From: Olivibacter sitiensis DSM 17696
Lineage (GTDB): Bacteria > Bacteroidota > Bacteroidia > Sphingobacteriales > Sphingobacteriaceae
Assembly: GCF_000427965.1 (NCBI RefSeq)
Contig: NZ_ATZA01000035.1
Span: 1 to 62,848, forward strand
Direction of reading: 5' to 3'
Length of the DNA stretch: 62,848 bases
Numbering within the stretch: the first letter of the stretch is position 1; each line of letters begins with the position of its first letter. Made by a program: the position numbers and the translations under genes. Under the pieces are notes generated by a model. That model worked only from the letters and a program-made list of their open reading frames with translations, was not told where the DNA came from and searched no databases. This document shows, one piece after another, positions 18,432 through 54,363 of the stretch.

Positions 18432-18497
18432 CAGTAATATTGGTAGTTAAATCAGTAATTTATATACTTGATAATTGTTTTTTTTATGACATTTTTG
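18432..18497 (+). promoter_or_regulatory. Regulon operator-promoter module, site A (molybdoenzyme operon)
   Basis: Half-sites CAGTAAT at 18432 and 18453 start 21 bp apart. The first continues ATTGGTAG and the second leads to TATAC at 18463-18467. A TTTG -7 core follows at 18494-18497 after 26 bp. This is the arrangement found at six other places in the window and fits an activator of the AraC family binding tandem half-sites next to the polymerase. It lies 126 bp before the first molybdoenzyme gene. Confidence 0.8.
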
Positions 18498-18622
18498 TAA
18501 AGTGCACGTTGTGAGAAGAGGACTAACACGGTTATAAATTTCCTGCATTATAGATTCTTGATTTCATACCGATCGATAAGATAAGGAAATTGATGATCCA
18601 TTTTTTGAAATAGAGAAAAGCC

Positions 18623-20881
18623 ATGACACTTGTAAAAACAACACTGAACAGAAGATCCTTTTTGAGAGCCGCTTTGCTGGCGGGTGGAGGAATGGTACTG
18701 AGCTTTAGCTGGATGGCGGGTTGTAAACCTTCCGGAAGAAAAGCTCTTGAAATGCCCGAAGAGTGGTTTGAGCTGAACAGCTACATCAAGATCGGCGAAA
18801 ACGGCGTGATATCCTTGAGCAGCCCCAATCCGGAATTTGGCCAGAACGTGAAGACTTCCATGCCGATGATACTGGCGGAGGAATTGGATGTGGATTGGGA
18901 TAACGTCGTGGTGGAACAGGCGGATTTTCTTCCAGACCGTTTCAAAAACCAGTTTACAGGGGGAAGCCAGGCTATCCGGTCAAACTGGACACCGCTCCGG
19001 ACGGTGGGCGCTACGGCCCGACAGATGTTGATATTGGCGGCGGCCAAACACTGGAATGTTCCGGCTACAGAGATAACGACCGAGCCCGGCATACTGTTGC
19101 ACAAGGCCTCCGGTAAACAGGCATCTTATGGAGAGATGGCATCTGCTGCCTCCCAGATCCCTATCCCGGAAGAAGTGGAGCTGAAAAAAGTTTCCGACTT
19201 CAAGATCATCGGCACATCCAAGAAAAACGTAGATGTCAAGAATATCGTTAACGGTAAACCGCTCTTTAGCCTTGACTACAAGACCGAAGGAATGCTCACC
19301 GCCATGATCGTGCATCCACCTGCATTCGGCATGCAACTGAAATCCATTGATGATAGCGCAGCCATAACCATGCCCGGCATACAATCAATATTTACCATTG
19401 ATACGCTAACAGGTGATATAGACCAGAACTTCTTTGATGCCACCAGTTTTACCAAGATGGCCGTAGTGGTCGGCAATAGCACCTGGGAAGTCATGCAGGC
19501 AAAAAAGGCACTGAAGATAGCGTGGGAGGAAGAACCCGAACGGGTGTTCAGGAGATCCGCCTCCTGGATGCAGGGCTCCGAAATCATTAAAGCAACCTTT
19601 CCCCCCGGACTGGAGAGTACAGATGATCACCTGGCTAAAATGGCGGAATTTACCAAAAAGCCCGGTCAGATCCTCCGCCGCGACGGTGATCCGGAAGGTG
19701 CCTTTAAAAAGGCCTCCAAAATAATAGAGCGCACCTACACGGCACCTTTCCTTGCGCATAATACCATGGAGCCGGTCAACTGCTTTGCACACGTGACGGC
19801 CGAAAAAGCGGAACTCTACGGCCCGCTTCAGGCACCGGAATATATAAATGCTACATTGTCCCAACGCTTGGGCCTTCCAAAGGATAAGATACACATTAAA
19901 CTGGCCCGCATGGGAGGAGGTTTTGGTCTGCGTGCCTATGGGCATCATCTTATCGAAGCCGCTGTTATTTCCCAACAGGTGAAAGCACCGGTTAAGTTGG
20001 TGTATACCCGTGAAGATGAAATGACCGCAGGTTTGTACCGTCCGGCATATAGCGCTACTTATCGCGCGGCCCTTGATGAGAACAATCAATTGATCGCTTT
20101 CCATGTTAAAGGCGGAGGTATTCCCGAAATGCCCGTTGCCCCCCATCGTTTCCCCGCAGGAGCCATCGATAATTATCTGGCCGAAGGATGGAGCATCACG
20201 TCCAATATCACAACCGGGATCTTCCGTGCACCGAGATCGAATTTCATGGCTTGTGCCGAGCAGTCGTTCCTGGACGAGCTTGCCGCCGAGATGGGAAAAG
20301 ATCCGATCGATTTTCGTCTGGAGCTTTTGGAACGGGCAAAGACGGCACCGGTAGGCGAAAACAACGATTACCAGGCGGATCGTTATGCCGGTGTCCTACG
20401 GTTGGCCCGTGATAAATCCAATTGGAACGAAACCAAACAAGGCATCCATAGGGGGGTATCGGCTTATTTTTGCCACAACTCGTATGTGGCAGAGGTGGTT
20501 GATCTGGTGATGAAAAATGGCACGCCAAAGGTAGAAAAGGTTGTGGCCGCTATAGACTGTGGAATTGTGGTCAACAAGGATGCGGCGGTAAATATGGCCG
20601 AAGGGGCCATCGTAGACGGGATTGGGAACGCCCTGTTTGGGGAGATGCCTTTTAAGGATGGTGCACCTCAAAAGAATAACTTTCCAAGTTATCGCATGAT
20701 CCGGGCCAATGAAGCGCCAAAGGAAATAGATGTCCATTTTGTAGGAAGTGAAACAGACCCGACCGGAATGGGCGAACCGCCTTTTGCGCCGGTATTTGCG
20801 GCTGTAGCCAATGCACTTTATAAGGCGACAGGTACGCGGTTTTACAACCAACCCTTTATCAATGGGCTGACAACTGGCTGA
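18623..20881 (+). CDS. Xanthine-oxidase-family molybdenum-binding subunit (IorB-like), Tat lipoprotein
   Basis: A 752-residue large subunit. The leader contains a twin-arginine motif RRSFLRA and a lipobox-like WMAGC, so it is probably exported folded and lipid-anchored. Family marks include the cofactor loop MGGGFGLRAYGHH near residue 430, the FRAPRSNF segment near 535 and the catalytic glutamate region GMGEPPFAPV near 714. The nearest known types are isoquinoline 1-oxidoreductase or aldehyde-oxidase large subunits, which hydroxylate N-heterocycles or oxidise aldehydes using molybdopterin cytosine dinucleotide. The first motif has Leu where its paralog at 22130 has Arg. It shares an operon with an Fe-S subunit and a cytochrome. 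Confidence 0.92.
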   Translation: MTLVKTTLNRRSFLRAALLAGGGMVLSFSWMAGCKPSGRKALEMPEEWFELNSYIKIGENGVISLSSPNPEFGQNVKTSMPMILAEELDVDWDNVVVEQADFLPDRFKNQFTGGSQAIRSNWTPLRTVGATARQMLILAAAKHWNVPATEITTEPGILLHKASGKQASYGEMASAASQIPIPEEVELKKVSDFKIIGTSKKNVDVKNIVNGKPLFSLDYKTEGMLTAMIVHPPAFGMQLKSIDDSAAITMPGIQSIFTIDTLTGDIDQNFFDATSFTKMAVVVGNSTWEVMQAKKALKIAWEEEPERVFRRSASWMQGSEIIKATFPPGLESTDDHLAKMAEFTKKPGQILRRDGDPEGAFKKASKIIERTYTAPFLAHNTMEPVNCFAHVTAEKAELYGPLQAPEYINATLSQRLGLPKDKIHIKLARMGGGFGLRAYGHHLIEAAVISQQVKAPVKLVYTREDEMTAGLYRPAYSATYRAALDENNQLIAFHVKGGGIPEMPVAPHRFPAGAIDNYLAEGWSITSNITTGIFRAPRSNFMACAEQSFLDELAAEMGKDPIDFRLELLERAKTAPVGENNDYQADRYAGVLRLARDKSNWNETKQGIHRGVSAYFCHNSYVAEVVDLVMKNGTPKVEKVVAAIDCGIVVNKDAAVNMAEGAIVDGIGNALFGEMPFKDGAPQKNNFPSYRMIRANEAPKEIDVHFVGSETDPTGMGEPPFAPVFAAVANALYKATGTRFYNQPFINGLTTG

Positions 20882-20942
20882 CGAGATATGAACGGTACTG
20901 ATTAAATAATAATGATTTAACTAAACATTCTAAACAACTATC

Positions 20943-21413
20943 ATGGCAACAACAAAATTGAAAATCAACGGCAAAGAACATGCAGTAGATGTTGACCCAT
21001 CTACCCCCTTGTTATGGGTTTTACGGGATCACTTAAACTTAGTTGGCACCAAATACGGTTGTGGCGTTGCTTCTTGCGGAGCATGCGTCGTTCATCTAGA
21101 AGGAGAAGCGGTACGGTCATGCGTGACGAAAGTAAGTCGTGCCGCTGGAAAGGAAGTCGTTACAATAGAAGGCCTTTCGGAGAATGGAGACCACCCCTTA
21201 CAACAGGCATGGGAACAGGTAGACGTGCCTCAGTGTGGATATTGTCAGTCTGGACAAATTATGTCTGCGGCCGTATTGCTCCGGGAAATCCCAAACCCCA
21301 CGGACGAGGAGATAGATCTTGCCATGACGGGAAATATCTGCAGATGTGGTACTTACTTGAGAATCAGGAAAGCGATTCATTTAGCGGCCGAAATCCAGAA
21401 TGAAATAAAATAA
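20943..21413 (+). CDS. 2Fe-2S subunit of the molybdoenzyme (IorA-like)
   Basis: A 156-residue protein with two [2Fe-2S] sites: a plant-ferredoxin-type site ([15 protein letters not shown], residues 38-52) and a C-terminal site ([10 protein letters not shown] near 98 and [12 protein letters not shown] near 131). It passes electrons from Mo to the next carrier. It has no signal peptide, so it presumably leaves the cell together with a Tat-tagged large subunit. It lies between the two large-subunit paralogs and could serve both. Confidence 0.95.
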
Positions 21414-21439
21414 ACAGCTCACAGATAATAACTTAGGAG

Positions 21440-22096
21440 ATGAAAAGTAAAACTGGACAAAAAGAAATCAGGCATAGCTATAAATTGACAGCGGCGTTAT
21501 CCGTTTTGGCCATCCTGATGACTTTAATGGTTACGATATCTGCACGTTCCGAATCAGCAGCATTTGGTTCAAAAGATAAGGAGGTGTTCGCAGATCAACG
21601 GAAGAGGGATAGTGTTAAATCTGTTGAGGCATTTTCCAAAGTGTATAGCGTATTGATTAGCCCGAGGTGTGTCAACTGTCATCCGGCCGGCGATGTTCCC
21701 CTTCAAGGGGATGATAGCCACTTGCATGCGATGTTGCCACAGCGGGGCAAAGAGGGAAAGGGGATGCTGACCATGAAATGTGCGAATTGCCACCAGAGTG
21801 AAAATACCCGCGGACCGCATACGCCTCCCGGCAATCCAAACTGGCATCTGCCACCTGCCGATATGAAAATGGTCTTCGAGGGAAAAAGCGCTAGCGAGTT
21901 GGCAAAACAGCTCATGGATCCTGCCCAAAACGGACATAAAGATATGAAAGCGCTGATCGCCCACGCAGATGATGCATTAGTGCTTTGGGGCTGGGAACCT
22001 GGCGATGGACGGACGTTGCCTCCCTTGAGCCATAAAGAATTTAAGGAAGCCTGGATTACCTGGCTAAAAAACGGTGCTTATGCGCCCGAAAAATAA
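21440..22096 (+). CDS. Secreted diheme cytochrome c, probable electron acceptor of the molybdoenzyme
   Basis: A 218-residue protein with an N-terminal hydrophobic signal or anchor (about residues 16-35) and two haem-binding motifs, CVNCH near 76 and CANCH near 113, each flanked by His-rich sequence. In comparable operons an exported cytochrome carries electrons from the IorA-type subunit to the respiratory chain. It starts 26 bp after the Fe-S gene. Confidence 0.88.
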   Translation: MKSKTGQKEIRHSYKLTAALSVLAILMTLMVTISARSESAAFGSKDKEVFADQRKRDSVKSVEAFSKVYSVLISPRCVNCHPAGDVPLQGDDSHLHAMLPQRGKEGKGMLTMKCANCHQSENTRGPHTPPGNPNWHLPPADMKMVFEGKSASELAKQLMDPAQNGHKDMKALIAHADDALVLWGWEPGDGRTLPPLSHKEFKEAWITWLKNGAYAPEK

Positions 22097-22129
22097 AGGA
22101 CTGGAAATGCAGAATTTAGAAGGTAAGAT

Positions 22130-24364
22130 ATGACTGAAGTTAAAAATAATACAGGAAGGAGATCCTTCCTGAAAGCTGCCCTGCTCGCTGGAGGAGGGAT
22201 GGTTCTCCATTTCAGTTGGCCTGCTGGCAGCAAAGCTGCCGCAAAGAAAGCACTTGAAACACCCGAGGAGTGGTTCGAGTTGAATAGCTATATCAAGATC
22301 GGTGAAAACGGTATCGTCTCCCTGTTCAACCCAAATCCCGAATTTGGACAGAACGTAAAGACCTCCCTGCCCATGATCCTGGCCGAAGAGCTGGACATCG
22401 ATTGGGAACAAGTGGTTGTAGAACAGGCCGATTTCTATCCCGAACGTTTTGGACGACAATTTACAGGAGGTAGCCAATCGGTTCGCGGAGCTTGGTCTCC
22501 TTTAAGGACAGCAGGTGCTACCGCAAGGCAGATGCTGGTACTGGCCGCGGCCGCCGAGTGGAATGTTCCGGCTTCGGAGATTAGTACAGAATCTGGCACC
22601 TTATTGCATCAGGCTTCGGGAAAGAAAGCCGGTTACGGTGAATTTGCGTCTGCGGCCGCAAAGATACCAGTCCCCAAAGAGGTTAAGCTGAAGGCTGTCA
22701 ATGATTTTAAGATAGTAGGTTCATCCAGGAGCAACGTAGAAGTTAAGAATATACTGACCGGAAAGCCCTTATTTGGACTCGATTATAAGACCGAAGGTAT
22801 GTTGATTGCTATGGTCGTTCACCCGCCCGCCTTCGGATTGTGCTTTAAGTCAATGGATGACAGCGTTGCTAAAACCATGCCCGGCATCAAGTCCATATTT
22901 ACGATAGATTCGTTGACTGAAGATATAGACCAGAACTTCTTTGATGCGACCAGTTTTACCAAATTTGCCGTCGTTGTGGGCAACACAACTTGGGAGGTAC
23001 TACAGGCAAAAAAAGCGTTAAAAGTAGAGTGGGAAGAGGAACCCGAACGCACCTTTACCATGGGTGGCAGAAAGGCGACATTTCCTGCTGGACTGGAAAG
23101 CACCGAATTGCATCGGGCCAAAATGCAGGAATTGACCAAGACGCCGGGGAATATTGCCCGACGGGACGGTGACCCGGAAAGGGCCTTCCAAGCGGCCGCA
23201 AAAATTCTCGAACGTACCTATACCGCACCCTTTTTGGCACATAATGCCATGGAACCCGTCAATTGTTTTGCACATGTGACGGCTGATAGGGCCGAACTAT
23301 ATGGGCCTACACAGGCCCCTGAGTTTATTTCGGGAACACTTTCGGAAAGGCTGGGGATGCCAAAGGAAAAGATACTGATTCGGCTGGCACGCATGGGAGG
23401 CGGATTTGGCCGCCGGGCATACGGGCATCATCTGATAGAAGCCGCCGTGATTTCCCAGTATTTACAGGCTCCCATCAAACTGGTATACACTCGTGAAGAT
23501 GAGATGACGGCTGGGATCTATAGGCCCACGTATAGTGCAACCTATCGGGCAGCGCTGGACGAAAACAATCAGTTATTGGCTTTTCATGTCAAGGCGGGTG
23601 GAATACCTGAATCACCTTTGCATGCAAATCGATTTCCGGCAGGGGCCATAGACAACTACCTTGCCGAGGGGTGGCAGATTCCTTCCAATATCACCGTTGG
23701 CGCTTTTCGCGCACCGCGCTCCAATTTTATGGCGGCAGCAGAGCAGTCCTTTCTGGACGAACTGGCGGCAGAGATGGGCAAAGACCCTATTGATTTTCGT
23801 CTGGAACTGCTGGAGCGGGCAAAGACGAACCCCGTTGGTCAAAGGAATGATTACGATGCTGCCCGATATGCGGGCGTACTGGAACTGGTACGTGATAAAT
23901 CCAATTGGAAAGAAACCCCGCAAGGGGTACACCGTGGCGTATCGGCCTATTTTTGCCATAATTCATACGTGGCCGAGATAGTTGATCTGGTGATGAAAGA
24001 TGACATGCCAAAGGTAGAAAAAGTCGTAGCCGCTATTGACTGCGGCATTGTGGTCAACAAGGATGCGGCGATAAATATGGCAGAAGGGGCTATCGTAGAC
24101 GGTGTAGGAAACGCCCTGTACGGTGAACTTCCGTTTAAGGACGGAGTGCCTCAAAAGAACAATTTTACAACGTACCAATTGATCCGTATGAACGAAGCTC
24201 CCAAAACGATCGATGTTCATTTTGTACAAAATGAAGAAGCTCCAACCGGCATGGGCGAACCTCCATTTGCACCGGTTTTTGCCGCCGTGGCCAATGCGCT
24301 TTATCGCGCTACCGGAAAGCGCTTTTATAACCAACCGTTCATCAATGAACTGAAATCATCATAA
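22130..24364 (+). CDS. Second xanthine-oxidase-family molybdenum-binding subunit (IorB-like), Tat substrate
   Basis: A 744-residue paralog of the 18623 product, very similar along its length. It keeps the twin-arginine RRSFLKA, but the lipobox cysteine is replaced (PAGSKAA), so it is probably not lipidated. It has GGGFGRRAYGHH, the usual form of the cofactor motif, and GMGEPPFAPV near the end. It is 8 residues shorter, mostly at 'RTFTMGG' where the first copy has an insertion. The pair may bind the same Fe-S partner with different substrate ranges or different anchoring. Confidence 0.92.
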   Translation: MTEVKNNTGRRSFLKAALLAGGGMVLHFSWPAGSKAAAKKALETPEEWFELNSYIKIGENGIVSLFNPNPEFGQNVKTSLPMILAEELDIDWEQVVVEQADFYPERFGRQFTGGSQSVRGAWSPLRTAGATARQMLVLAAAAEWNVPASEISTESGTLLHQASGKKAGYGEFASAAAKIPVPKEVKLKAVNDFKIVGSSRSNVEVKNILTGKPLFGLDYKTEGMLIAMVVHPPAFGLCFKSMDDSVAKTMPGIKSIFTIDSLTEDIDQNFFDATSFTKFAVVVGNTTWEVLQAKKALKVEWEEEPERTFTMGGRKATFPAGLESTELHRAKMQELTKTPGNIARRDGDPERAFQAAAKILERTYTAPFLAHNAMEPVNCFAHVTADRAELYGPTQAPEFISGTLSERLGMPKEKILIRLARMGGGFGRRAYGHHLIEAAVISQYLQAPIKLVYTREDEMTAGIYRPTYSATYRAALDENNQLLAFHVKAGGIPESPLHANRFPAGAIDNYLAEGWQIPSNITVGAFRAPRSNFMAAAEQSFLDELAAEMGKDPIDFRLELLERAKTNPVGQRNDYDAARYAGVLELVRDKSNWKETPQGVHRGVSAYFCHNSYVAEIVDLVMKDDMPKVEKVVAAIDCGIVVNKDAAINMAEGAIVDGVGNALYGELPFKDGVPQKNNFTTYQLIRMNEAPKTIDVHFVQNEEAPTGMGEPPFAPVFAAVANALYRATGKRFYNQPFINELKSS

Positions 24365-24435
24365 CTGGTTATAGAATGGTTTAATTTTTTAACGATAGAG
24401 AACTAAGCAAATTTCAATTTAAAACTATTTAAACA

Positions 24436-24888
24436 ATGAAAAAATCAATCATCGCGATATTATTCGTCATAGTGGGTATGCAATTGTCTTTCGCCCAAAG
24501 CTCTTCAACCGAACAGGAGCTTAAAGAGCTCTCCAAAGCCAAATGGCAATGGATGGCGGATAAGAACGTGGACAAACTGGCTTCACTTTTTCACGATAAG
24601 TCGAAATTTGTCCACATGAGCGGAACCTGGAAAAAGGAAGAGGAGCTCGACATTATTAAAACAGGAAGCATCTGGTACAAAAATGCGGATGTGCACGACG
24701 TTGCCGTAGAAGTTGTTGGCGATGTCGCCGTCCTTTGGAACCGCATTACCTTGGATGCCGTGGTTCGGGAAAACGTTGCGGTGACAGAGTTTACCGTGAC
24801 GGAAGTTTATAAAAAGGAAGACGACGGCTGGAAATTGTTGGTCTTCACCTTCAGCAGTGTTCGGGACACGCATAAGATTAAGCATTAA
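24436..24888 (+). CDS. Secreted NTF2-like (DUF4440) protein
   Basis: The 150-residue product has a Sec signal (MKKSIIAILFVIVGMQLSFA) and one NTF2-like domain with KWQWMADKNVDKLASLFHD near residue 35 and FVHMSGTWKKEEELDIIK near 56. It is a paralog of the protein at 38871, which sits in another operon of the same putative regulon. NTF2-like folds bind small hydrophobic ligands or act as simple isomerases or dehydratases. No catalytic dyad can be assigned with confidence. It is the last gene before a terminator. Confidence 0.75.
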   Translation: MKKSIIAILFVIVGMQLSFAQSSSTEQELKELSKAKWQWMADKNVDKLASLFHDKSKFVHMSGTWKKEEELDIIKTGSIWYKNADVHDVAVEVVGDVAVLWNRITLDAVVRENVAVTEFTVTEVYKKEDDGWKLLVFTFSSVRDTHKIKH

Positions 24889-24975: not shown

Positions 24976-24976
24976 A

Positions 24977-25858
24977 TTATTCTATCTTTTTGTCGCTTTC
25001 GTTCCTGCCTAAAGCCCGGAATTCATTAGGGCTCAGTCCGACCATTTTTTTAAAGAACCGGGAAAAATGTTGTGGATATTTAAAGCCCAGCTCAAAAGCG
25101 ATCTCATTAATGGACTTATCCTTATCGCTGATCCTATTTTTGGCTTCCTCGACTATCCTGTTATGAATATATTCCTGCGCGGATATTCCCGTTTCCTTCT
25201 TGATCAGGTCTCCAAAATAATTTGGTGATCGGTGTAGCCGGTCTGCAAAATAAGCTACCATCGGAATTCCGATTTCGTAGATATTTCCCGAGGAAAGGTA
25301 ATCATTGAGCAAAAGATCAAACCGTTTTAAAATACCTTTAGAGCTATCTTCATACGATACCGTTTGGCGGTCATAGCATCGCAGGCAATAATTCAGGAGA
25401 CGTTCTATGTGGGAGACAATGAGCTTTTTACTGTGCTTATCCATAGCGTTTTCCAGTTCCAGTTCAATGCTTCCAAAGCAGTCAGAGATCAGCTGGCATT
25501 CGTCCGGCATCAGGTTTAAGGATGTATGGGTAGCATAACCGTAAGCATTCCATTCCCTGATGGTATCTGCCAATGAGGTTCCCGGTACCAGATCGGGATG
25601 GAAGACCAATGTATGTTTCATGGACATATCCGGTTCGATCGTTTGTTCCGTCGCCTGTCCCGGGAAAATAACCGATAGGGCTCCCTTTTGATTTTCATGG
25701 TACGACAGCGCTATGCAGTATAGGCCCAGATGTAACCTGCAATCAGACTCTAAGGCTAAGGGGGTCCGTTTCACCAGACTGACCAGCGAATGCCTTGTTT
25801 CAATGTTGTAGAAATCGTTGAAGGCGCGGATTGTGTTTACGTTGATCGTGTTTTCCAT
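24977..25858 (-). CDS. AraC-family transcriptional regulator 1
   Basis: A 293-residue protein with an N-terminal sensing half (residues 1-170; LVFHPDLVPGTSLA near 85) and a C-terminal double helix-turn-helix with YFGDLIKKETGISAQEYI and FELGFKYPQHFSRFFKK. It is a full-length paralog of the regulator at 29561. AraC proteins usually bind two direct half-sites near the -35 region, which matches the seven operator modules in this window. This is a prime candidate for binding them, but the sequence does not say which paralog binds which site. The ligand is unknown. Confidence 0.9.
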   Translation of the reverse strand: MENTINVNTIRAFNDFYNIETRHSLVSLVKRTPLALESDCRLHLGLYCIALSYHENQKGALSVIFPGQATEQTIEPDMSMKHTLVFHPDLVPGTSLADTIREWNAYGYATHTSLNLMPDECQLISDCFGSIELELENAMDKHSKKLIVSHIERLLNYCLRCYDRQTVSYEDSSKGILKRFDLLLNDYLSSGNIYEIGIPMVAYFADRLHRSPNYFGDLIKKETGISAQEYIHNRIVEEAKNRISDKDKSINEIAFELGFKYPQHFSRFFKKMVGLSPNEFRALGRNESDKKIE

Positions 25859-26118: not shown

Positions 26119-26871
26119 TTAGCCATTGACGATCCATTCCTTAAATTCTGCTGCTCTGTTTTTACTGATGTAGATCCGTTCGGGAGTCTCGGTGTCCAAT
26201 GTAATGAAAAGTCGGTTGTCGAACCAGATCGTTATGTTTTTCACGGCACTGCGGGCAATGATATATTGTTTGTTGGCACGGTAAAAATCCGACGGGTTCA
26301 AGGAGGAAAATATCTGATCCAATGTTCTGGAAAAGGGATGGTTATTCCCGTCCTTTAGATAGATATGCGTGTTCCTATCGGTTGTATAGAAACAGGAAAC
26401 CTGCCCGAGATCGACAGGCAGTAACTGGTCCTTGACCGGAACCAGGATCTTGTCCCTGTAGCGTGCTTCGGGTGTCAGTTTTGCGACCTGCGACAGATAT
26501 GCGGTGATATCGGCCGGCGACCATTTACTGAATTTATGCAGTGCCCGCTCAAGATCACTGTTTTTTATAGGTTTGAGCAGGTAATCGATGCTGTTGACCT
26601 TAAATGCTTCGATAGCATACTCATCGAAAGCCGTTGTGAAAATAATCGGCACCTCGACATCGATCTGGTCAAATATCAAAAATGCCGAACCATCAGAAAG
26701 ATGGATATCCATCAATATCAGATCAGGGACAGGGTTTTTCTTTAACCATTTAACGGTCTGACCGACACTTTCCGTATTACCAAGGACCTGTATCGTGGGG
26801 TCGATCTCCCGCAGAATCTCCAGTAGGCTTTCATAAGCGGCTGTTTCATCTTCTACAATCAGTACCCTCAT
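26119..26871 (-). CDS. LytTR-type response regulator
   Basis: A 250-residue protein: a receiver domain with phospho-acceptor Asp55 (LILMDIHLSD) and YLLKPI near 110, then a LytTR DNA-binding domain from about residue 145 (LLPVDLGQVSCFYT, THIYLKDG, FYRANKQYIIA). It is the partner of the kinase encoded 7 bp upstream. It lies beside the AraC/AKR block, but its targets are not visible here. Confidence 0.93.
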   Translation of the reverse strand: MRVLIVEDETAAYESLLEILREIDPTIQVLGNTESVGQTVKWLKKNPVPDLILMDIHLSDGSAFLIFDQIDVEVPIIFTTAFDEYAIEAFKVNSIDYLLKPIKNSDLERALHKFSKWSPADITAYLSQVAKLTPEARYRDKILVPVKDQLLPVDLGQVSCFYTTDRNTHIYLKDGNNHPFSRTLDQIFSSLNPSDFYRANKQYIIARSAVKNITIWFDNRLFITLDTETPERIYISKNRAAEFKEWIVNG

Positions 26872-26878
26872 AAGATAA

Positions 26879-27883
26879 TCACTTTAACGGTAAATAAACG
26901 GTAAATGTTTCTCCATTATCGGCTACCTGGATAGGTTTGTTCATCAATAGCAAAAAACGGCTTTCCAGATTCTTCAGGCCGGTTCCGTTGGTTACCGGAG
27001 CAACCAGTTTAGGATAGATAGGACTGGTAACAACCAACTCATTTCTATCATTGGAATATATATCGATCGTCATCTTATGATCGCTGTCTATCATGTTATG
27101 CACCACCACGTTTTCCAAAAGTGGAAGAATGGAAAGCACCGGCAGTCTGGCCGTTAGCTTGCTGCTATCTACGTTAACGTTGTAATCCAGTTTATTTGCA
27201 AAACGGACTTCCATCATATAGCGGAAAGCATCCACAAAGGCCAGCTCTTCCTCCAAGGTTACCATTCCTTTTTTGTCGCTCTGCAGTATGTACCGGAAAA
27301 CATCCGAAAGTTTGCCCACGTAGGTCAGCGTCATCCTATCGTCCTTTTTCCGGATGAGCGATGTCAGGCCATTGAGCGAATTGAAGAAGAAGTGCGGATT
27401 GATCTGGTTGGTCAGCGCATCATACCGGCTCTGTAGATTCTTGACTGTCAATTCCTCAATCTGCTTTTCCTTTTTTCTTTTCTCCGTGTAGAGCATAACG
27501 ATATGCCCCAGGAGCGTACTGAGGACAGAGACAACAAGCACCTGAAAAAGTACGAGACTGCCAAAATGCCTTACCTTGGTAAAGACAAAAAATGAAATGG
27601 CTCCGTAAAGAGCATAGGCAACAATCGATATCAGAACGCTGTACCCCAATCTCTTTTTAAAAGGGGCGGTACTTAGATGATTGAGGTTGTACCTGACCAG
27701 GATAAAAATCAGTCCGATAAAAAAAATATAACGGAATAAGAAAAATAGGATATGACCCGTCCTATCTCCGCTGTCAAGCCATTTTAATTCAAAGGGCAGC
27801 CAGGTTATATCAGGGTATATAACAAAAATTGCTGATACGGCACTGATCAGCAGTAGCTGCCACCAATTGTATTTCCTTAACAA
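26879..27883 (-). CDS. LytS/YehU-type sensor histidine kinase
   Basis: A 334-residue protein with about four transmembrane helices in residues 10-135, then a His_kinase domain with the phosphorylated His164 in NQINPHFFFNSL and a degenerate ATPase C-terminus with NGTGLKNLESR. The signal is probably sensed through the membrane part, as no large periplasmic domain exists. It forms a two-gene operon with the response regulator. The upstream gap (27884-28090) shows no gene and no clear promoter. Confidence 0.92.
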   Translation of the reverse strand: MLRKYNWWQLLLISAVSAIFVIYPDITWLPFELKWLDSGDRTGHILFFLFRYIFFIGLIFILVRYNLNHLSTAPFKKRLGYSVLISIVAYALYGAISFFVFTKVRHFGSLVLFQVLVVSVLSTLLGHIVMLYTEKRKKEKQIEELTVKNLQSRYDALTNQINPHFFFNSLNGLTSLIRKKDDRMTLTYVGKLSDVFRYILQSDKKGMVTLEEELAFVDAFRYMMEVRFANKLDYNVNVDSSKLTARLPVLSILPLLENVVVHNMIDSDHKMTIDIYSNDRNELVVTSPIYPKLVAPVTNGTGLKNLESRFLLLMNKPIQVADNGETFTVYLPLK

Positions 27884-28090: not shown

Positions 28091-28156
28091 CAGTAAAAAT
28101 GGTAGCATTATCCGTAATTTATATACGGATCAGGCCCAACTTGTTTTCGAACTTTG
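28091..28156 (+). promoter_or_regulatory. Regulon operator-promoter module, site F (periplasmic AKR)
   Basis: Half-sites CAGTAAA at 28091 and CCGTAAT at 28112 start 21 bp apart; TGGTAGC follows the first, and TATAC lies at 28122-28126. The -7 core TTTG at 28153-28156 follows after 26 bp, in the form GAACTTTG. The site lies 151 bp before the AKR gene at 28307; the spacer carries no other gene I can support. Confidence 0.8.
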
Positions 28157-28273: not shown

Positions 28274-29470
<1,197 letters not shown>

Positions 29471-29560: not shown

Positions 29561-30457
29561 TCAATTCAGATTCCTATACTCGTTCGGCGTATAACCGACA
29601 CGTTGCTTAAACAGCCTGCTAAAATGTTGGGGATATTTAAAGCCCAGTTCGTAAGCAATCTCATTGATGGTTTTCTCGCTGTCAAAAATTTTGTTCTTCG
29701 CAATATCAATAATCTTGTTCTGGATATATTCCTGCGCTGTTTTGCCCGTCTCCTTTTTGATCAGGTCACCAAAGTAGTTTGGCGACAAATGGAGTGCATC
29801 GGCAAAGTAAGCCACCGATGGCAATCCGATGCTGTAAGGTTTCTCGGAAGCAAAAAAGCTGTTCAATTCTTCTTCAAATCTTTCCAGTATGCCCTTATTG
29901 ATATGTTCCCGGGTAATGAACTGCCGGTCATAGAACCGTTCGCAATAGTTCAGGAACAGCTCGATATTGGAAGCGATCAGCCGTTTGCTGTGCTTATCAA
30001 CTGCGTGGCTCAGTTCACTTTCGATCTTGGAGAAACAGTCAAACACGATCTTGCGTTCCTTTTTGGATAGGTGGAGTGCCTCATTCGTATTGTAACCGAA
30101 GAAACTGTATTCATCCAATGTCTTGGCCAGAGCGGTGCCCTTGATCAGGTCGGGATGAAATACCAGCGCATGTCCCATCGGTTGATAGATATCCACTTTG
30201 TTCTCTACGTCAATGACCTGTCCCGGAGAAATAAAGACCAGGGTACCTTCCTCGTAGTCATAATAGTTGCATCCGTATTTTAAATCACCGCAGTGTATCT
30301 CTTTCAGGAAAATACAGTATAGCCCGAAAGTCATCCGCGATCCCGTTCTCTTATTTGCTTTTGAGAAATCGATGATACTGACCAGTGGGTGCAGCGTTTC
30401 GTGGTTATTGAAATCGTTGTACTGGCTTACCGTATCAAAATTATATGCCTGTTCCAT
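29561..30457 (-). CDS. AraC-family transcriptional regulator 2
   Basis: A 298-residue paralog of the regulator at 24977, with the same plan: ligand-sensing half (LVFHPDLIKGTALA near 94) and C-terminal HTH pair (LSPNYFGDLIKKETG, ELGFKYPQHFSRLFKQR). It is divergent from the exporter gene at 30620, with operator site B between them, the classic position of a local regulator. Its own promoter may use TATTTTTG (minus strand, 30478-30485), an exact TAnnTTTG match. The inducer is unknown; carbonyl compounds are plausible given the AKR targets, by analogy with YqhC of E. coli. Confidence 0.92.
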   Translation of the reverse strand: MEQAYNFDTVSQYNDFNNHETLHPLVSIIDFSKANKRTGSRMTFGLYCIFLKEIHCGDLKYGCNYYDYEEGTLVFISPGQVIDVENKVDIYQPMGHALVFHPDLIKGTALAKTLDEYSFFGYNTNEALHLSKKERKIVFDCFSKIESELSHAVDKHSKRLIASNIELFLNYCERFYDRQFITREHINKGILERFEEELNSFFASEKPYSIGLPSVAYFADALHLSPNYFGDLIKKETGKTAQEYIQNKIIDIAKNKIFDSEKTINEIAYELGFKYPQHFSRLFKQRVGYTPNEYRNLN

Positions 30458-30524: not shown

Positions 30525-30590
30525 CAGTAATATTGGTAGCAAAAACCGTAATCCGTATACCATAATACCTCCTGTCAGTTCTGAAATTTG
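30525..30590 (+). promoter_or_regulatory. Regulon operator-promoter module, site B (exporter)
   Basis: CAGTAATATTGGTAGC starts at 30525, CCGTAAT at 30546, TATAC is at 30556-30560, and TTTG at 30587-30590 follows after 26 bp. It lies 30 bp before the exporter ATG and within the divergent gap with araC 2, so it could also affect that regulator. Confidence 0.85.
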
Positions 30591-31856: not shown

Positions 31857-31922
31857 CTGTTATTTTGGTAGAAGAAACAGTAATCTGTATACTAATTAAC
31901 AGGTTTTTAATCAGGAACTTTG
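31857..31922 (+). promoter_or_regulatory. Regulon operator-promoter module, site E (three-AKR operon)
   Basis: The weaker first half-site CTGTTAT (31857) with TTTGGTAG is followed after 21 bp by CAGTAAT (31878). TATAC lies at 31888-31892 and TTTG at 31919-31922 after 26 bp. It sits 47 bp before the AKR start at 31969, directly behind the exporter gene; no terminator is seen between them. Confidence 0.75.
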
Positions 31923-36392: not shown

Positions 36393-36458
36393 CAGTAATA
36401 TTGGTAGCAATTTCGGTAATCTGTATACCAAAATAATCAGATTGTATTAGGAAATTTG
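36393..36458 (+). promoter_or_regulatory. Regulon operator-promoter module, site C (flavodoxin to esterase operon)
   Basis: CAGTAATATTGGTAGC starts at 36393, CGGTAAT at 36414, TATAC is at 36424-36428, and TTTG at 36455-36458 follows after 26 bp. Initiation just after it would leave a short leader to the ATG at 36477. Confidence 0.85.
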
Positions 36459-41556: not shown

Positions 41557-41641
41557 CTTGTTTTATCACATGAACAAGAGCGCTATCAGTTTATCAAAAT
41601 GAGCGGATAAGAAATACCCGATCAAGAAAAATGAAATCAAT

Positions 41642-43741: not shown

Positions 43742-43806
43742 CAGTAATATTGGTAGCAGAATCCGTAATCCATATACCTTCTGCCGTCTTTTAATCTCGA
43801 ACTTTG
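43742..43806 (+). promoter_or_regulatory. Regulon operator-promoter module, site D (CMD to SDR operon)
   Basis: CAGTAATATTGGTAGC starts at 43742, CCGTAAT at 43763, TATAC is at 43773-43777, and TTTG (in GAACTTTG) at 43803-43806 follows after 25 bp. It lies 61 bp before the ATG at 43867. Confidence 0.85.
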
Positions 43807-44598: not shown

Positions 44599-44617
44599 AA
44601 TTTAAAATATTCAAAAG

Positions 44618-45685: not shown

Positions 45686-45687
45686 AA

Positions 45688-45777: not shown

Positions 45778-45802
45778 GGTAATCGACTGAAAAAATAAGC
45801 AA

Positions 45803-46639
45803 ATGAAAAATCTCAATAAAACGTGGTTGCTAACGGGTTGCTCTACAGGGCTTGGGCGTGCTTTCGCGCAAGAAGTATTAAAAAATGGTTATAATGCTGT
45901 GGTAACTTCCAGAAATGCTGCAGATATTCTGGGCATAGTCGAAAATTATCCCGAAACCGCCCTGGGTCTGGCAATGGATGTAACCGATAAAGAACAGGTG
46001 GCAAAGGTCATTGAACAGGCCAAAACTAAATTCGAAAGCATAGATGTACTGGTAAACAATGCCGGTTATGGGTATCGCGCAGCGGTGGAAGAAGCAGAGG
46101 ACGATGCGGTGCAGCGATTGTTCGATACAAACTTTTTTGGCATGGTAAATACAATAAAGGCAGTACTGCCAGGAATGCGGAAACAGAGATCAGGTACGAT
46201 CATGAACGTCTCTTCCATAGCAGGGCGCTTTGCTGCGCCGGGCTCTGCTTATTATGCCGCTTCAAAGTTTGCCGTGGAAGGTATGTCCGATGCACTCCGC
46301 AAAGAGGTTGCTCCATTGGGCATAAGGGTTATTGTAATCGAGCCGGGCGCTTTCAGGACAGACTTTGCAGGTCGTTCGCTGACGGGCACCCAAAAAGAAA
46401 TTTCAGATTACAGGGAAACAGCAGGGAAAAGAAGAAAAGGGAACGACCACACACATGGCACGCAACCCGGTAATCCCCAAAAAGCGGCACAGGCAATAAT
46501 CAAATTGGCTGAAAGTAAAAATGTTCCATTCCGCTTATTATTGGGTACTGACGCTGTTAATAGCGTTAGGAAAGAACTAGAAGCCCAAAGCAAAGAATTG
46601 GAAGATTGGAAAGAGATTAGCTTAACCACCGATTATTAG
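45803..46639 (+). CDS. Classical short-chain dehydrogenase/reductase
   Basis: A 278-residue SDR with TGCSTGLGRAFA (cofactor loop), NNAGYGYRA near residue 85, a catalytic Ser in IMNVSSIAG, and YYAASKFAVEG with the Tyr-Lys pair near 150. It is cytoplasmic and NAD(P)-dependent, reducing or oxidising an alcohol/carbonyl. It is part of the site D operon. Confidence 0.93.
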   Translation: MKNLNKTWLLTGCSTGLGRAFAQEVLKNGYNAVVTSRNAADILGIVENYPETALGLAMDVTDKEQVAKVIEQAKTKFESIDVLVNNAGYGYRAAVEEAEDDAVQRLFDTNFFGMVNTIKAVLPGMRKQRSGTIMNVSSIAGRFAAPGSAYYAASKFAVEGMSDALRKEVAPLGIRVIVIEPGAFRTDFAGRSLTGTQKEISDYRETAGKRRKGNDHTHGTQPGNPQKAAQAIIKLAESKNVPFRLLLGTDAVNSVRKELEAQSKELEDWKEISLTTDY

Positions 46640-46706
46640 GCATATAGGAAATCGGTAAAATAAATGAAAAGGAGAACCATAATAAAGCAGAGGTGTAAGT
46701 GTTTTT

Positions 46707-47717
46707 ATGAAAGCAATTGTAGTAGAAGAATCATTCGGGCTGGAAAATATAAAAATCCAAGAGCTGTCTAAACCGACTATAAAGGACAATGAAGTTTTGA
46801 TAAAAGTCGAAGCGGGTTCTTTAAATTATCTAGATTTGTTGGTTGTAAAAGGGAAATTTGGAAAACAAAATTTTGATTTTCCTCATATAATAGGAACCAA
46901 TATCGCTGGTAGAGTAGTCGAAGTCGGTACACACGCAGAAAATATCAACGTCGGTGATTTGGTATGTAACCATTATTACCAAACTTGGCAATCAGGCGTC
47001 TTTAAAGAAGGAAATAATGACGCTCGTCCAGGAACCTATCTTAAAGGCGTTTTTTCGGAATATATAGCCTTGCCTGCTTACGCGTGTGTTCCCATTCCGT
47101 CTAATTTATCAACAACGGAAGCGGCAGCATTACCTATCGCAGGTTTAACGGCTTGGGAAGCGTTAGTAACAGAAGGAAAGTTAATAGCAGGGCAAACGAT
47201 TCTTATTAAAGGTACAGGTGGTGTTTCTGTTTTTGCACTTCAGTTTGCAAAGATGCTTGGAGCAAAAGCAATTGTTACTTCAAGTGCTGACGAGAAATTG
47301 GAAAAAGCCACTGCATTGGGAGCTAATGTAACTTTAAATTATAAAACTAATAGCAATTGGAAGCAGGATGTTTTAGCTGAAACCGCAGGACAAGGTGTGG
47401 ATTTGGTTTTGGAAGTTACAGGCGCGGAACTCAACGAATCGCTCGATTATCTGGCGCTTAATGGGAAAATTATTGTGTCCGGTTTTTTGAGCGGCACAAA
47501 AGCCAATCTAGATATTTTAACTTTTATGGAACGGAAAGCGACCATTTTCAGTACTAAAGTCGGCTCTAAAGCTTCATTCATTGATATGAACAGAGCCATA
47601 GAAATAAATAACATAAAACCTTTTATAGGTAAAATTTTTCCGTTAGACAAGTTTAAAGAAGCCTTTGATCATCTGGAATATGGGAAACATTTCGGGAAAG
47701 TAATCATTACCTTTTAA
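46707..47717 (+). CDS. Zinc-independent MDR oxidoreductase (quinone oxidoreductase-like)
   Basis: A 336-residue medium-chain reductase. It has the GroES-like N-terminal half, HIIGTNIAGRVVEVG near residue 70 and the cofactor loop KGTGGVSVFALQFAK near 168. The Cys/His ligands of zinc alcohol dehydrogenases are not seen, so it resembles quinone or enone reductases. Codon use is visibly more AT-rich than its neighbours (many AAA, ATT, TTA), suggesting later acquisition. It starts 67 bp after the SDR. Confidence 0.87.
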   Translation: MKAIVVEESFGLENIKIQELSKPTIKDNEVLIKVEAGSLNYLDLLVVKGKFGKQNFDFPHIIGTNIAGRVVEVGTHAENINVGDLVCNHYYQTWQSGVFKEGNNDARPGTYLKGVFSEYIALPAYACVPIPSNLSTTEAAALPIAGLTAWEALVTEGKLIAGQTILIKGTGGVSVFALQFAKMLGAKAIVTSSADEKLEKATALGANVTLNYKTNSNWKQDVLAETAGQGVDLVLEVTGAELNESLDYLALNGKIIVSGFLSGTKANLDILTFMERKATIFSTKVGSKASFIDMNRAIEINNIKPFIGKIFPLDKFKEAFDHLEYGKHFGKVIITF

Positions 47718-47895
47718 AAAATATTGGGCCAAACTGAGATTGATTTTCATAATCCTTGAGGGACAGTGATGCGGACCGCTTATGGTAAACCTTAAATCGT
47801 TTCGGCGTAGGACAGTGTAAAAGTAATACAGATTATTGATACAGTAAAACAAAGCAGTGAACAGGAAAAAGTGCTAGAATTTAAATAAATAAGAA

Positions 47896-48372
47896 ATGAG
47901 AAAAATAATAGTTCTATTGATAGGAATTGCAGTTACAACAAGTTGTCAGACTAAAAGCGTAAGAGATAAGGACACAGCAGAAATTTTCCCAAATAGCACT
48001 AAAGTGACCAATGACAATTTCACAGGAGACGTTTGGCTTACTATGTTGGCAGAAAGCGATACCACCTACAACGTCAATATCGGCTCGGTAACCTTTGAAC
48101 CGGGAGCAAGAACAAACTGGCATTCCCACAAAGGAGGACAGATCCTTTTGGTAACGGAAGGAGAAGGTTTATACCAGGAAAAAGGTAAGCCGGTCGAGGT
48201 CATAAAAAAGGGAGATGTTATAAAATGCCCACCAAATACCGAACATTGGCACGGTGCTACACCTACCGAGGCAATGACGCATATTGCAGTAGGCACAAAC
48301 ACCAATGTAGGTGGTGCAGTATGGTTTAAACCTGTAACGGATCAGGAATACCGCAGCGGCGAAAGCCAATAA
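47896..48372 (+). CDS. Cupin-domain lipoprotein
   Basis: A 158-residue protein with a lipoprotein leader (LIGIAVTTSC) and a single cupin: PGARTNWHSHKGGQILLV near residue 75 (metal-binding His pair) and CPPNTEHWHGATPTEAMTHIAV near 115. Similar cupins accompany CMD proteins and reductases in other operons. Probably a metal-binding periplasmic protein; no reaction can be assigned. Confidence 0.87.
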   Translation: MRKIIVLLIGIAVTTSCQTKSVRDKDTAEIFPNSTKVTNDNFTGDVWLTMLAESDTTYNVNIGSVTFEPGARTNWHSHKGGQILLVTEGEGLYQEKGKPVEVIKKGDVIKCPPNTEHWHGATPTEAMTHIAVGTNTNVGGAVWFKPVTDQEYRSGESQ

Positions 48373-48383
48373 CCGTTTATTAT

Positions 48384-49463
48384 ATGAATAAATTATCAAT
48401 CTTTTTTGCATTCGTGCTTCCAACGATATTAACTGATAGCGTATTTGCACAGACCCTCGAAAAGAAAGAGTCTATGCTGATCGAAGATCAGGGCAGCTTT
48501 GCCATTGGAGGAACGGTCATTGAAAATCCGGGAAACTATGATCCGGTCAAACGTGCTACTGATGGTCAGACCTATCATGGCGATCATGCCTATCTGTTTT
48601 ATCAGATACCGGCACAGGCCAGACAGCTTCCGCTTGTATTCTGGCATGGGATCGGCCAATTTTCCAAAACCTGGGAAACCACTCCCGATGGACGGGAAGG
48701 TTTCCAGAACATTTTTTTAAGACGGCGCTTTGGCGTTTACCTTCTGGACCAGCCCAGACGTGGAAACGCAGGTCGTGGTACGATAGAAGGTACTGTTACG
48801 CCCACTCCCGATGAACAGGATTGGTTCGGTACATTTCGGGTGGGGATATGGCCGGATTATTTCCCCGGAGTTCAATTCTCCAAAGATCCCGAAACGCTCA
48901 ATCAATATTTCCGTTCCATGACACCTAATATTGGTCCGATCGATATAGGTGTCAATGTAAGCGCTGTTTCGGATCTGTTTTCAAAAATCGGCCCCGCAAT
49001 TCTTGTTACACATTCTCATTCCGGCGGTATGGGATGGCTCACTGCCATCAAAAATCCAAATGTAAAAGGAATAGTATGTTATGAGCCGGGAAGCGGTTTC
49101 GTTTTTCCAGAAGGAGAAGTACCTCCAGCCGTAGAGAGTTCAGCAGGTCCGTTGGAAGCAGTCGGAATCCCAAGGGAAGAATTTTTAAAACTGACAAAGC
49201 TTCCAATCATCATTTACTATGGCGACAATATTCCCAAGAAATTAGATATCAATAATCCCGGGGCGGATGGCTGGCGTGCTAGGCTTGAAATGGCAAGGCT
49301 GTGGCGGGATGCAGTAAATAAACATGGAGGTGATGTGACCGTTGTACATTTACCTGAAATTGGCATTAAAGGGAATACCCATTTCCCGTTTTCTGATCTG
49401 AACAACATTGAAATAGCGGATCTGATGTCGAAATGGTTAAAGGAAAAAGGTCTGGATAGATAA
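48384..49463 (+). CDS. Secreted alpha/beta hydrolase (esterase 713-like), intact copy
   Basis: A 359-residue protein with a Sec leader (ending TDSVFA). It has PLVFWHGIGQFSKTWETTPDG near residue 82, LLDQPRRGNAGR, nucleophile Ser213 in THSHSGGMGW, CYEPGSGFVFPEG, IIYYGDNIP and GIKGNTHFPFSDLNN, which holds the catalytic His. The 'HG...TWETTPDGR' and 'DQ-RGR' pattern recalls esterase 713 of Alcaligenes. It is the undamaged member of a family of three in this window (others at 35092 and 43277). Confidence 0.87.
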   Translation: MNKLSIFFAFVLPTILTDSVFAQTLEKKESMLIEDQGSFAIGGTVIENPGNYDPVKRATDGQTYHGDHAYLFYQIPAQARQLPLVFWHGIGQFSKTWETTPDGREGFQNIFLRRRFGVYLLDQPRRGNAGRGTIEGTVTPTPDEQDWFGTFRVGIWPDYFPGVQFSKDPETLNQYFRSMTPNIGPIDIGVNVSAVSDLFSKIGPAILVTHSHSGGMGWLTAIKNPNVKGIVCYEPGSGFVFPEGEVPPAVESSAGPLEAVGIPREEFLKLTKLPIIIYYGDNIPKKLDINNPGADGWRARLEMARLWRDAVNKHGGDVTVVHLPEIGIKGNTHFPFSDLNNIEIADLMSKWLKEKGLDR

Positions 49464-49572
49464 TATAGAATCCCAATAATAATATTAATGGAGCTGAAGA
49501 AACTCCTACCATGGGGTACGGTATGGTTATAACGCGTACACAATAAATGAGTTAACATAACAAACTAAGAAA

Positions 49573-50325
49573 ATGAGCCAACAAGAGAATATTGCCGGAA
49601 AGGTCGTAGTGATCACGGGCGCAAGTAGCGGACTCGGTGAAGCCTCTGCCCGCCACCTAACGGAGCTGGGCGCAACCGTCGTTTTAGGCGCACGCCGCAA
49701 AGAAAAAATTGATAAGCTGGCGGAGGAAATCAATAACAACGGAGGAAAGGCACTAGCTGTAGAAACAGATGTAACTGATGTTAACCAAGTAAAAAATCTG
49801 GTAGATACCGCAGTAAATGAATACGGAAAGATCGATGTAATTCTTAACAATGCGGGACTGATGCCACTATCGCCCCTGGAATACCTGAAAATCGGCGATT
49901 GGAACCAGGCTATTGATGTAAATATCAAAGGTGTATTATATGGCATTGCAGCCGCATTACCCTATATGAAAGAGCAGAAATCAGGTCAGATCATCAGTGT
50001 TTCATCAGTAGCCGGACATACCATCAGTCCCGGTGGTGCAGTTTATTCCGCCACCAAATATGCGGTAAGGGTAATTTCCGAAGCCTTAAGACAGGAAGTA
50101 AAACCGTATAATATCCGTACTGCGGTAATCTCTCCCGGAGCCGTCGCTACCGAACTGCCGAACAGCGTAACCGCTCCCGATGTAGCAGAAGGCATTCACC
50201 AATATTATGCGCAAAACGCGATCCCTGCCAGTTCATTTGCAAGAGCGCTTGCTTTTATCATCAGCCAACCGGAAGATGTGGATGTGAATGAAATCCTATT
50301 CCGTCCAACTGTACAGCAATTGTAA
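49573..50325 (+). CDS. Classical SDR oxidoreductase
   Basis: A 250-residue SDR with [15 protein letters not shown] (cofactor loop), [12 protein letters not shown] near residue 93, [24 protein letters not shown] with the Ser-Tyr-Lys triad around 138-155, and a C-terminus [14 protein letters not shown] typical of YdfG-like SDRs that reduce small carbonyls or hydroxy acids. Last gene of the site D operon, followed by a terminator. Confidence 0.93.
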
Positions 50326-53532: not shown

Positions 53533-53727
53533 TTTTTTACTTTAATTAAGCCTGTATAGGAAAAGTGAATTGGGGCTGTTCCTTTTGCTCCGGTAGTATT
53601 CTTGTATATATTGTATAATTTTCATCGTATTTCTATCTGATTGTCCCTTGACTTTTGGCATCGGCCCAACCTAAATGATGATCCTCCCGGAAGTGGATAC
53701 CAAATCCAGAGGCAAAAGCTAAGCTTA

Positions 53728-53937
53728 TCACAGGCCATGTCTGGATATATGATTCATAATGCTCTTTAAAATCCTTTTTTCTATCACGCTGACTTCTTTA
53801 TCGAAAAGCTGCGCGTTGCTTCCAGTATCCAGTTTCCGATACCAATCCAATAATTTTCTTTTCTCAGAAATAGTGAGTTCCGTGTTCCCGGATCTTGTGA
53901 TAATCGGCGCTATTTCTTCTGGTATTTTCATGGTCAA
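53728..53937 (-). pseudogene. FecR-like anti-sigma factor, N-terminal fragment
   Basis: A 69-codon frame: IPEEIAPIITRSGNTELTIS then EKRKLLDWYRKLD, the N-terminal DUF4880-like part of Bacteroidota FecR proteins ('LLxWYxxxD'). The membrane helix and FecR domain are missing, so it is a fragment. Immediately downstream another frame reads LAFASGFGIHFREDHHLGWAD to a stop near 53628; I cannot assign it. FecR genes normally precede SusC/SusD pairs, and one lies 1.6 kb away in the opposite orientation. Confidence 0.5.
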
Positions 53938-53984
53938 TTTATTCTACGGTCCGAGACTATTTGTTAATATGTTAATATGACCCC

Positions 53985-54231
53985 TTACTTCTGTTTTTCT
54001 ATATCGATGACGTAACGAAATTTCGCTTTTCCATCCGCGATTTTCTTGCCGCGACCGATAACGGTTGCTACGTCTGTGTCGGTGATTTCCACTTCGGGAT
54101 GAATGTTGTTTGCTGCCGAATAATCCTGCGTTTCCCTGAAGCGACCAATCCGTGAGCCGGATACCTTTCGGTTTAACGCAAAAGTCCAGAATGGGCATTT
54201 TCACGCCATCGTTCAATTCTACTTTTTGCAT
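53985..54231 (-). pseudogene. Chimeric scar: AKR N-terminus joined to zinc alcohol dehydrogenase C-terminus
   Basis: It starts MQKVELNDGVKMPIL, matching the AKR at 31969. After about 17 codons a different frame reads SGSRIGRFRETQDYSAANNI and then ADGKAKFRYVIDIEKQK with TAA at 53985. This second part matches the C-terminus of YahK-like alcohol dehydrogenases ('GSxIGxxxETQ...FRYVID'). Both genes lost their interiors. It is preceded by operator site G, so it once headed another operon of the regulon. Confidence 0.75.
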
Positions 54232-54326
54232 ATTGCTACTTTTATGATGCTTAACCTTTAAAGAACCCTATATCGTCGACTATTCGCTGTCTCACATGTA
54301 AAGGTCTTGACTTTTATGGATCGAAA

Positions 54327-54363
54327 TGTATACCGATTACTGATTATACTACCAATATTACTG
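54327..54363 (-). promoter_or_regulatory. Regulon operator, site G (minus strand, promoter decayed)
   Basis: On the minus strand CAGTAATATTGGTAG starts at 54363, a second CAGTAAT starts 21 bp further on at 54342, and TATAC ends at 54328. The expected TTTG after 26 bp is TTAC, so the promoter has probably decayed. It faces the AKR/ADH scar at 54231. Confidence 0.75.

Follow-up and report, generated by a model that had tools for sequence, protein, structure and literature searches.

Introduction

At araI1-I2, Escherichia coli AraC binds two half-sites in tandem, 21 bp apart, the proximal one reaching the −35 region; the mode of action is class II activation. The operators predicted for the hybrid two-component systems (HTCS) of Bacteroides are direct repeats, with tandem sites averaging 21 bp apart; in one example, two 16-bp sites are separated by a 5-bp spacer, and paralogs can share one motif (accessible text of PMC3878776). 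E. coli YqhC is an activator, and its target is activated by glyoxal and furfural (accessible text of PMC5297802). This paper examines a 36-bp tandem operator that recurs in a stretch of 62,848 nucleotides from the Bacteroidota species Olivibacter sitiensis DSM 17696 (contig NZ_ATZA01000035.1; hereafter the window), together with the AraC/XylS-type regulator AraC2, which is encoded between two of these sites (29561..30457, minus strand; Pfam) and is the proposed operator binder.

The sites very probably serve as operators for AraC/XylS-type regulators of one Bacteroidota clade and so define a regulon; the regulators would be AraC2 and probably also its paralogs AraC1 and AraC3. This assignment is drawn from sequence comparison. 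The operator itself, its phasing to the promoter, its synteny with araC genes, the covariation between protein residues and operator bases, and a pattern at promoter position −12 are all computed observations.

Operator sites in the window and the genome

The original prediction listed six sites on the plus strand, starting at 18432, 28091, 30525, 31857, 36393 and 43742, and one on the minus strand, starting at 54363, each with half-sites whose starts lie 21 bp apart. All of this is confirmed; the seven sites form a gap-free alignment of 37 columns with 21 invariant ones, and the 21-bp offset is found in 7/7. The consensus of the 36-bp unit is CAGTAATATTGGTAG-n6-CnGTAATnnrTATAC, with two conserved boxes per half-site and a 21-bp period, as in tandem operators of the AraC/XylS type. 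The half-site words given in the prediction are the majority form but do not hold exactly everywhere: the site at 28091 reads AAATGGTAG and that at 31857 reads CTGTTATTTTGGTAG.

A matrix built from the seven sites scores them at 47–56 bits (36–53 bits when each is left out in turn); the best score in 20 first-order Markov sequences of window length is 12.4 bits. An eighth site, at 7223-7258(−), scores 40.6 bits with the same matrix, and a ninth, at C65:5645-5680(−) on another contig, lies about 72 bp upstream of the gene for a third AraC paralog (AraC3). All seven sites first counted are thus real, but two were missed.

A pattern search allowing two mismatches proved unspecific (19 matches, against 14 for the reversed pattern), so models were used instead. 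R1, a sequence-only Infernal model built from the seven window sites, yields 13 matches in the 5.05-Mb genome when E ≤ 10 is allowed. The nine at E 1.5e-5 or better are the eight window sites and the site on C65; the remaining four are partial (E 0.17–7.5), and beyond the nine no further credible match for the seven-site model was found in the 5.05 Mb searched. The matrix scan that had been proposed as a check therefore yields strong matches that are not scattered, with eight in one island of the window and one beside an AraC paralog. Since strong matches are confined to these two places, a genome-wide regulon was rejected; as far as the model sees, the regulon is local, consisting of the window island and one second locus.

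Conservation beside araC genes

Relatives were picked by the AraC2 protein only, with the motif left unused; the best 80 of at least 592 (66–88% identity) are nearly all Bacteroidota, and one is a metagenome-assembled genome (MAG) labelled KSB1. In 76 of these best 80, the motif (at least 16 bits with a matrix from window sites only) stands within 160 bp upstream of araC, on the opposite strand and facing away from it. The distance to the araC start is 68–70 bp for 52 of the 76 sites, and the other four relatives carry the motif elsewhere in the locus. The reversed matrix has 0 matches in the 1,393,774 bases of the relatives' loci.

Nine similar copies in one genome, eight of them within one 47-kb island, could also have arisen as a mobile or recently duplicated repeat that spread without any regulatory role, an outcome that the original prediction had itself named as a refutation. 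The window copies are alike only in the operator and the −7 box of the promoter; conservation in the seven-site alignment ends outside these elements, which are therefore not part of a longer repeat, and no flanks are shared beyond the promoter. All eight window sites fall between open reading frames (ORFs) of at least 90 aa taken as genes, and the position beside araC is the same in the 76 loci. Comparison with genome G003 shows higher identity in the operator than in the 100 bp upstream at 6/6 comparable sites; at site 43742, identity is 0.78 in the operator, slightly higher in the spacer (0.81), and 0.75 in the downstream stretch. The mobile repeat, hardly credible on these grounds, was rejected for the restriction of the likeness to operator and −7 box.

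Operators and regulators also co-occur. Among 100 genomes (that of O. sitiensis included), R1 at E ≤ 1e-3 finds sites in 14 of the 19 with an AraC match (E ≤ 1e-100; O. sitiensis is among the 14) and in 0 of the 81 without; at E ≤ 0.01, the figures are 15/19 and 4/81. In 296 genomes of the phylum, a second model, R2, finds sites in 20/23 genomes with AraC (E ≤ 1e-90) versus 4/273 without (Fisher p 3e-24, uncorrected for relatedness). R2 was built from 68 sites in public loci and may overlap the phylum sample; R1 does not, except for its own genome. The AraC cut-offs of 1e-100 and 1e-90 were chosen after the score gaps had been seen.

Across 380 loci, there are 283 distinct AraC-type genes, 239 of which have a site 40–130 bp upstream (by a matrix that ignores bases 4 and 25). 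Broken down by identity to AraC2, the operator is present upstream in 0/18 genes below 50%, 5/12 at 50–55%, 33/41 at 55–60%, and 201/212 above 60%.

Promoter architecture

The Flavobacterium −7 element has the form T−12 A−11 H H T−8 T−7 T−6 G−5, with six letters nearly invariant; transcription starts 4–5 nt below it, and F. johnsoniae promoters lack a clear −33 element (accessible text of PMC6847099). In the window, TTTG follows TATAC at 26 bp for the sites at 18432, 28091, 30525, 31857 and 36393, and at 25 bp for that at 43742, exactly as had been predicted for six sites; the seventh (54363) and the eighth have TTTA at 25 bp. By the Flavobacterium numbering, a 26-bp spacing makes the operator cover −70 to −35 relative to a predicted start site. 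It thus abuts the −33/−35 region at a fixed phase, which is the placement of a class II AraC-type site and fits the class II activator originally suggested.

The araC-linked sites of the relatives share this architecture. TTTG is found at 26 bp in 191/239 and at 25 bp in 20/239, and is absent nearby in 28/239; shuffled spacers give TTTG at those positions in 0.9% of cases, against 211/239 real sites. Near −33, TTTG is present in just 8/239. The base at −12 of the 211 operon-side boxes is mostly G (152), otherwise C (32), T (26) or A (1). On the araC side, TTTG stands 42–44 bp from the operator in 182/239, and there the −12 base is T in 182/182. At 25 sites not beside araC, namely 18 of the 22 non-araC sites in the 80 loci (at least 25 bits) plus seven window sites, it is G in 23 and C in two.

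The most economical reading of these sequences would be a weakened, activator-requiring operon promoter set opposite a good promoter for the activator gene. In general form, Bacteroidota may possess a class of activator-dependent promoters in which a −12 change (T to G, giving GAHHTTTG) weakens the primary-sigma −7 box, an AraC-type dimer covering −70 to −35 makes up for it, and the divergent regulator promoter keeps T−12 at a fixed phase; we hold this generalisation with slightly more doubt than belief.

AraC-type proteins can also repress, and AraC2 might conceivably shut down the operons and its own gene until a signal releases it. The operator extends to about −35 and could block polymerase there, and the araC promoter likewise keeps a phase of 42–44 bp to this operator. 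A repressor would, however, need neither the degraded −7 box (G−12) of most target promoters nor the lack of TTTG near −33 in all but those 8/239, and the fixed operator–promoter phasing in 211/239 fits contact with polymerase; repression is unlikely. The systematic nature of the −12 change might instead point to an alternative sigma factor that reads GAHHTTTG, with the AraC operator merely adding to its action, and Bacteroidota do possess an arsenal of ECF sigma factors (accessible text of PMC7366714). Yet the rest of the box (A−11, TTTG) is of the primary-sigma type (PMC6847099, as far as its accessible text goes), and T−12 is retained in 26/211, so that such a factor seems quite improbable.

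AraC regulators and residue–base covariation

AraC2 has 298 aa, and its only Pfam matches are helix-turn-helix (HTH) domains, the C-terminal double HTH (HTH_18, PF12833) scoring 72.6 bits in AraC2 and 80.3 bits in AraC1 against a cut-off of 33.6. AraC1 (24977..25858, minus strand) is 51% identical to AraC2, with nearly identical recognition helices and a sensor domain shorter by about 12 residues; AraC3, on C65, is 67% identical to AraC2. Among the 239 AraC proteins with an operator, Cys56 is conserved in 225 and Cys172 in 229, which would permit thiol sensing, although this is speculation.

Correlating regulator residues with the bases of their sites is an established method, applied to GntR and MerR regulators. 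The set used here comprises 239 AraC/operator pairs, 25 of which come from loci fetched by motif search. Residue 227 and operator base 4 rank first of 7200 residue–base pairs (z 11). When residue 227 is N, base 4 is T in 216/223 and G in seven; with S or G it is C in 7/7; with K it is G in 7/9 and A in two, and base 25 is then G in 9/9. Without the 25 motif-chosen pairs, the counts are 194/201 for N with T, 4/4 for S or G with C, and 7/9 for K with G. Residue 227 lies in the recognition helix of the first HTH (HTH1); an AlphaFold model of AraC2 (38 sequences, mean pLDDT 86) places it inside helix 226-237, and it presumably corresponds to Trp42 of MarA.

Second in rank is residue 242 with base 7, and residue 276 in HTH2 also scores highly with base 9 (base 9 is T or A in 202/213 proteins that have P, and G or C in 24/25 that have Q); residues 242 and 276 possibly mark extra DNA contacts, or else clade effects. 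The order 227-242-276 in the protein matches the order 4-7-9 in the DNA, according to which HTH1 would sit on the 5′ box. Some high-ranking pairs, such as the third (residue 159 with base 36), involve the sensor domain, so that part of the covariation signal reflects shared descent. On a quick LG+G4 tree of AraC N-terminal domains, residue 227 changes nine times and base 4 changes 16 times.

The link to AraC proteins, which the original prediction had marked as inference, thus gains support from synteny (76/80), co-occurrence and covariation, all computed from sequence. The island encodes a second candidate binder, a LytTR response regulator with its histidine kinase (26119-27883; Pfam). LytTR sites, too, are tandem repeats with a spacing of about 21 bp, and the direct repeats described here, next to −35, resemble them. 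Relatives of the LytTR protein and of the kinase, however, each occur in only 1/80 site-bearing loci (25% and 37% identity; tblastn, E ≤ 1e-15, 60% coverage; loci covering no more than about 10 kb to either side); moreover, conservation of the sites reaches the GGTAG/TATAC boxes, and their bases covary with residues of the AraC recognition helix. LytTR was rejected as operator binder on its linkage to sites in a single locus at 25% identity, and binding of the repeats by this pair is very improbable.

Target genes

Operator 1 (18432..18467, +) precedes the Mo-hydroxylase genes at 18623-24888, and operator 2 (28091..28126, +) precedes the aldo/keto reductase (AKR) gene AKRa (28307-29470); gene families here and below are Pfam assignments. 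Operator 3 (30525..30560, +), the araC-adjacent site that is conserved in relatives, lies between araC2 on the minus strand and an MFS gene on the plus strand. The most divergent site, operator 4 (31857..31892, +), stands before three AKR genes (31969-34999). Below operator 5 (36393..36428, +) are genes 36456-43252, encoding flavodoxin, NAD-binding, hydrolase, DUF4440, PQQ-dehydrogenase and carboxylesterase proteins; we infer from the small gaps that they form one operon. Operator 6 (43742..43777, +) precedes a CMD-DLH-SDR-ADH-cupin-hydrolase-SDR series (43867-50325), and operator 7 (54328..54363, −) precedes ORF 53944-54231, a DUF418 gene and the AKRe gene, all on the minus strand.

Operator 8 (7223..7258, −) is followed immediately by an IS21-like istA/istB pair (within 4561-7258), and the promoter therefore now faces the transposase gene at 5330-6874. 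The ninth operator (locus L161) faces a second gene set, including flavodoxin and NAD-binding relatives, beside AraC3.

A survey of targets outside the window covered 33 of 45 R1 matches, C65 among them; the other 12 were the eight window sites and four partial ones. A same-strand ORF begins within 450 bp of 30/33 sites, and 24 of these 30 first ORFs encode relatives of island proteins (46–92% identity), for instance an AKR, a CMD protein, a flavodoxin, the iron-sulphur subunit of the Mo-enzyme, a DUF4440 protein, a cupin or a carboxylesterase. In the relatives, too, the sites are not scattered, and many related bacteria have the operator ahead of similar enzyme genes of a detoxification type. 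One site in genome G002 (C1:3398538-3398573, locus L178) is followed after 406 bp by an ORF of 739 aa, phytochrome-like by eye and unlike the other targets.

In the 80 loci, some of which are short, the window proteins other than AraC whose relatives recur most often are cupin (51), the AKRs (48 for AKRd), DUF4440 (48), CMD (47), hydrolase 48384 (41) and DLH (38). Relatives of the Mo-hydroxylase subunits are present in 13. For the PQQ-type dehydrogenase (39370-41556), a Chitinophagaceae MAG (L066) encodes a counterpart with 90% identity; no relative was found in the other 79 loci (E ≤ 1e-15, 60% coverage), a distribution that may reflect recent transfer.

Proposed mode of action

Binding, activation and the nature of the signal are inferred. 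Two AraC subunits would bind head-to-tail on one face of the DNA, 21 bp apart, HTH1 reading the CNGTAAT box and HTH2 the GGTAG/TATAC box of each half-site. The promoter-side subunit would end at about −35 and touch RNA polymerase where a weak −33 element would lie. Target promoters mostly have a poor −7 box (GAHHTTTG, with G instead of the usual T at −12) and would for this reason be nearly silent unless the activator is bound; the promoter of araC, which points in the opposite direction and whose distance is constant, has a good −7 box (TAHHTTTG) and would be active by itself. The targets would be AKRs, SDRs, a CMD/AhpD-type protein, flavodoxin, cupin, SnoaL-type proteins, alpha/beta hydrolases and the Mo-hydroxylase. 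These enzyme families suggest a regulon that responds to reactive carbonyl or other electrophilic compounds, or that breaks down a particular carbonyl compound, which we regard as possible rather than probable.

Several observations weigh against this reading. Of the 19 genomes with AraC, five fall short of the 1e-3 site threshold; four of these (G039, G040, G052 and G095) are missed even at 0.01 and show weaker sites beside araC, with TTTG at 25 or 26 bp. Conversely, four genomes without AraC at the cut-off have weak partial matches (25–31 bp), and in the phylum scan four genomes have sites without an AraC match at E ≤ 1e-90. The sites in one of the latter, G211, are probably real, as hydrolase, cupin and DUF4440 relatives adjoin them in an assembly of about 320 contigs; those in G345, G294 and G309 are read as chance, since the matches are weaker or partial and the surrounding 3 kb contain no island relative. 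No operator is found in the expected place for 26/265 AraC genes at 50% identity or more, of which four score at least 10 bits at another distance and one sits at a contig end. None was found upstream of araC1 either; AraC1 might work ligand-free, or as a partner or antagonist. On well-supported branches of the tree, only four independent contrasts between residue 227 and base 4 are available (averaging 3.8 in the same direction and 0.0 in the opposite one), which agree with the pairing but are too few to be significant alone. Finally, in 6/30 cases the first ORF below a site in a relative shows no clear kinship to an island protein, and the enzyme families that underlie the guess at the signal score below the curated cut-offs of NCBIfam.

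Comparison with known systems

Among the papers listed by the literature search, there was no description of the operator, the regulon or the −12 pattern; since most subscription papers lay outside it, this absence is weak evidence. Within the same literature, which includes few subscription papers, the operator word GTAATATTGGTAG was not found, nor was a described regulator for these redox and hydrolase genes, and the Bacteroidota promoter papers listed contain no −12 rule in title or abstract. A concrete operator, widespread in Bacteroidota, is joined to its probable regulator and to its targets, and residue 227 and base 4 are predicted to be in contact. How Bacteroidota promoters become activator-dependent can be approached directly through the −12 pattern; if the rule is true for other activators, sequence alone could suffice to recognise activated promoters throughout the phylum.

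Among named families, the match of AraC2 to RclR and the other NCBIfam AraC/XylS equivalogs is at HTH level only. For AraC2, each of the 22 families listed falls far short of its curated cut-off, and the protein is not RclR by NF040475 (16.8 bits against a cut-off of 400). Similarity to E. coli AraC is likewise restricted to the DNA-binding domain, and operator and regulon differ.

The E. coli YqhC system, with yqhD-dkgA, resembles the locus in that an AraC-type gene is divergent from aldehyde and aldo-keto reductase genes. The target promoter type of YqhC differs from the Bacteroidota type. Orthology was rejected, as there is no full-length similarity and identity is 28% over 80 HTH residues only; the targets named in the accessible text of PMC5297802 are yqhDE. 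The enzyme families of the targets would be compatible with a YqhC-like, aldehyde-responsive function.

Closest in operator architecture are the Bacteroides HTCS, which share with AraC2 the phylum, an AraC-type DNA-binding domain and tandem operators of about 21 bp. They differ in having a sensor kinase fused to a response regulator and in being tied to sugar use (PMC3878776, accessible text); AraC2, with its 298 aa and HTH matches only, has no kinase or receiver fusion, and its targets are other ones. The claim of a previously unrecognised regulon therefore stands in that no earlier description was found, but not for the 21-bp tandem layout, which is published for Bacteroides in the same source: the regulon is new, and its tandem operator architecture was already known.

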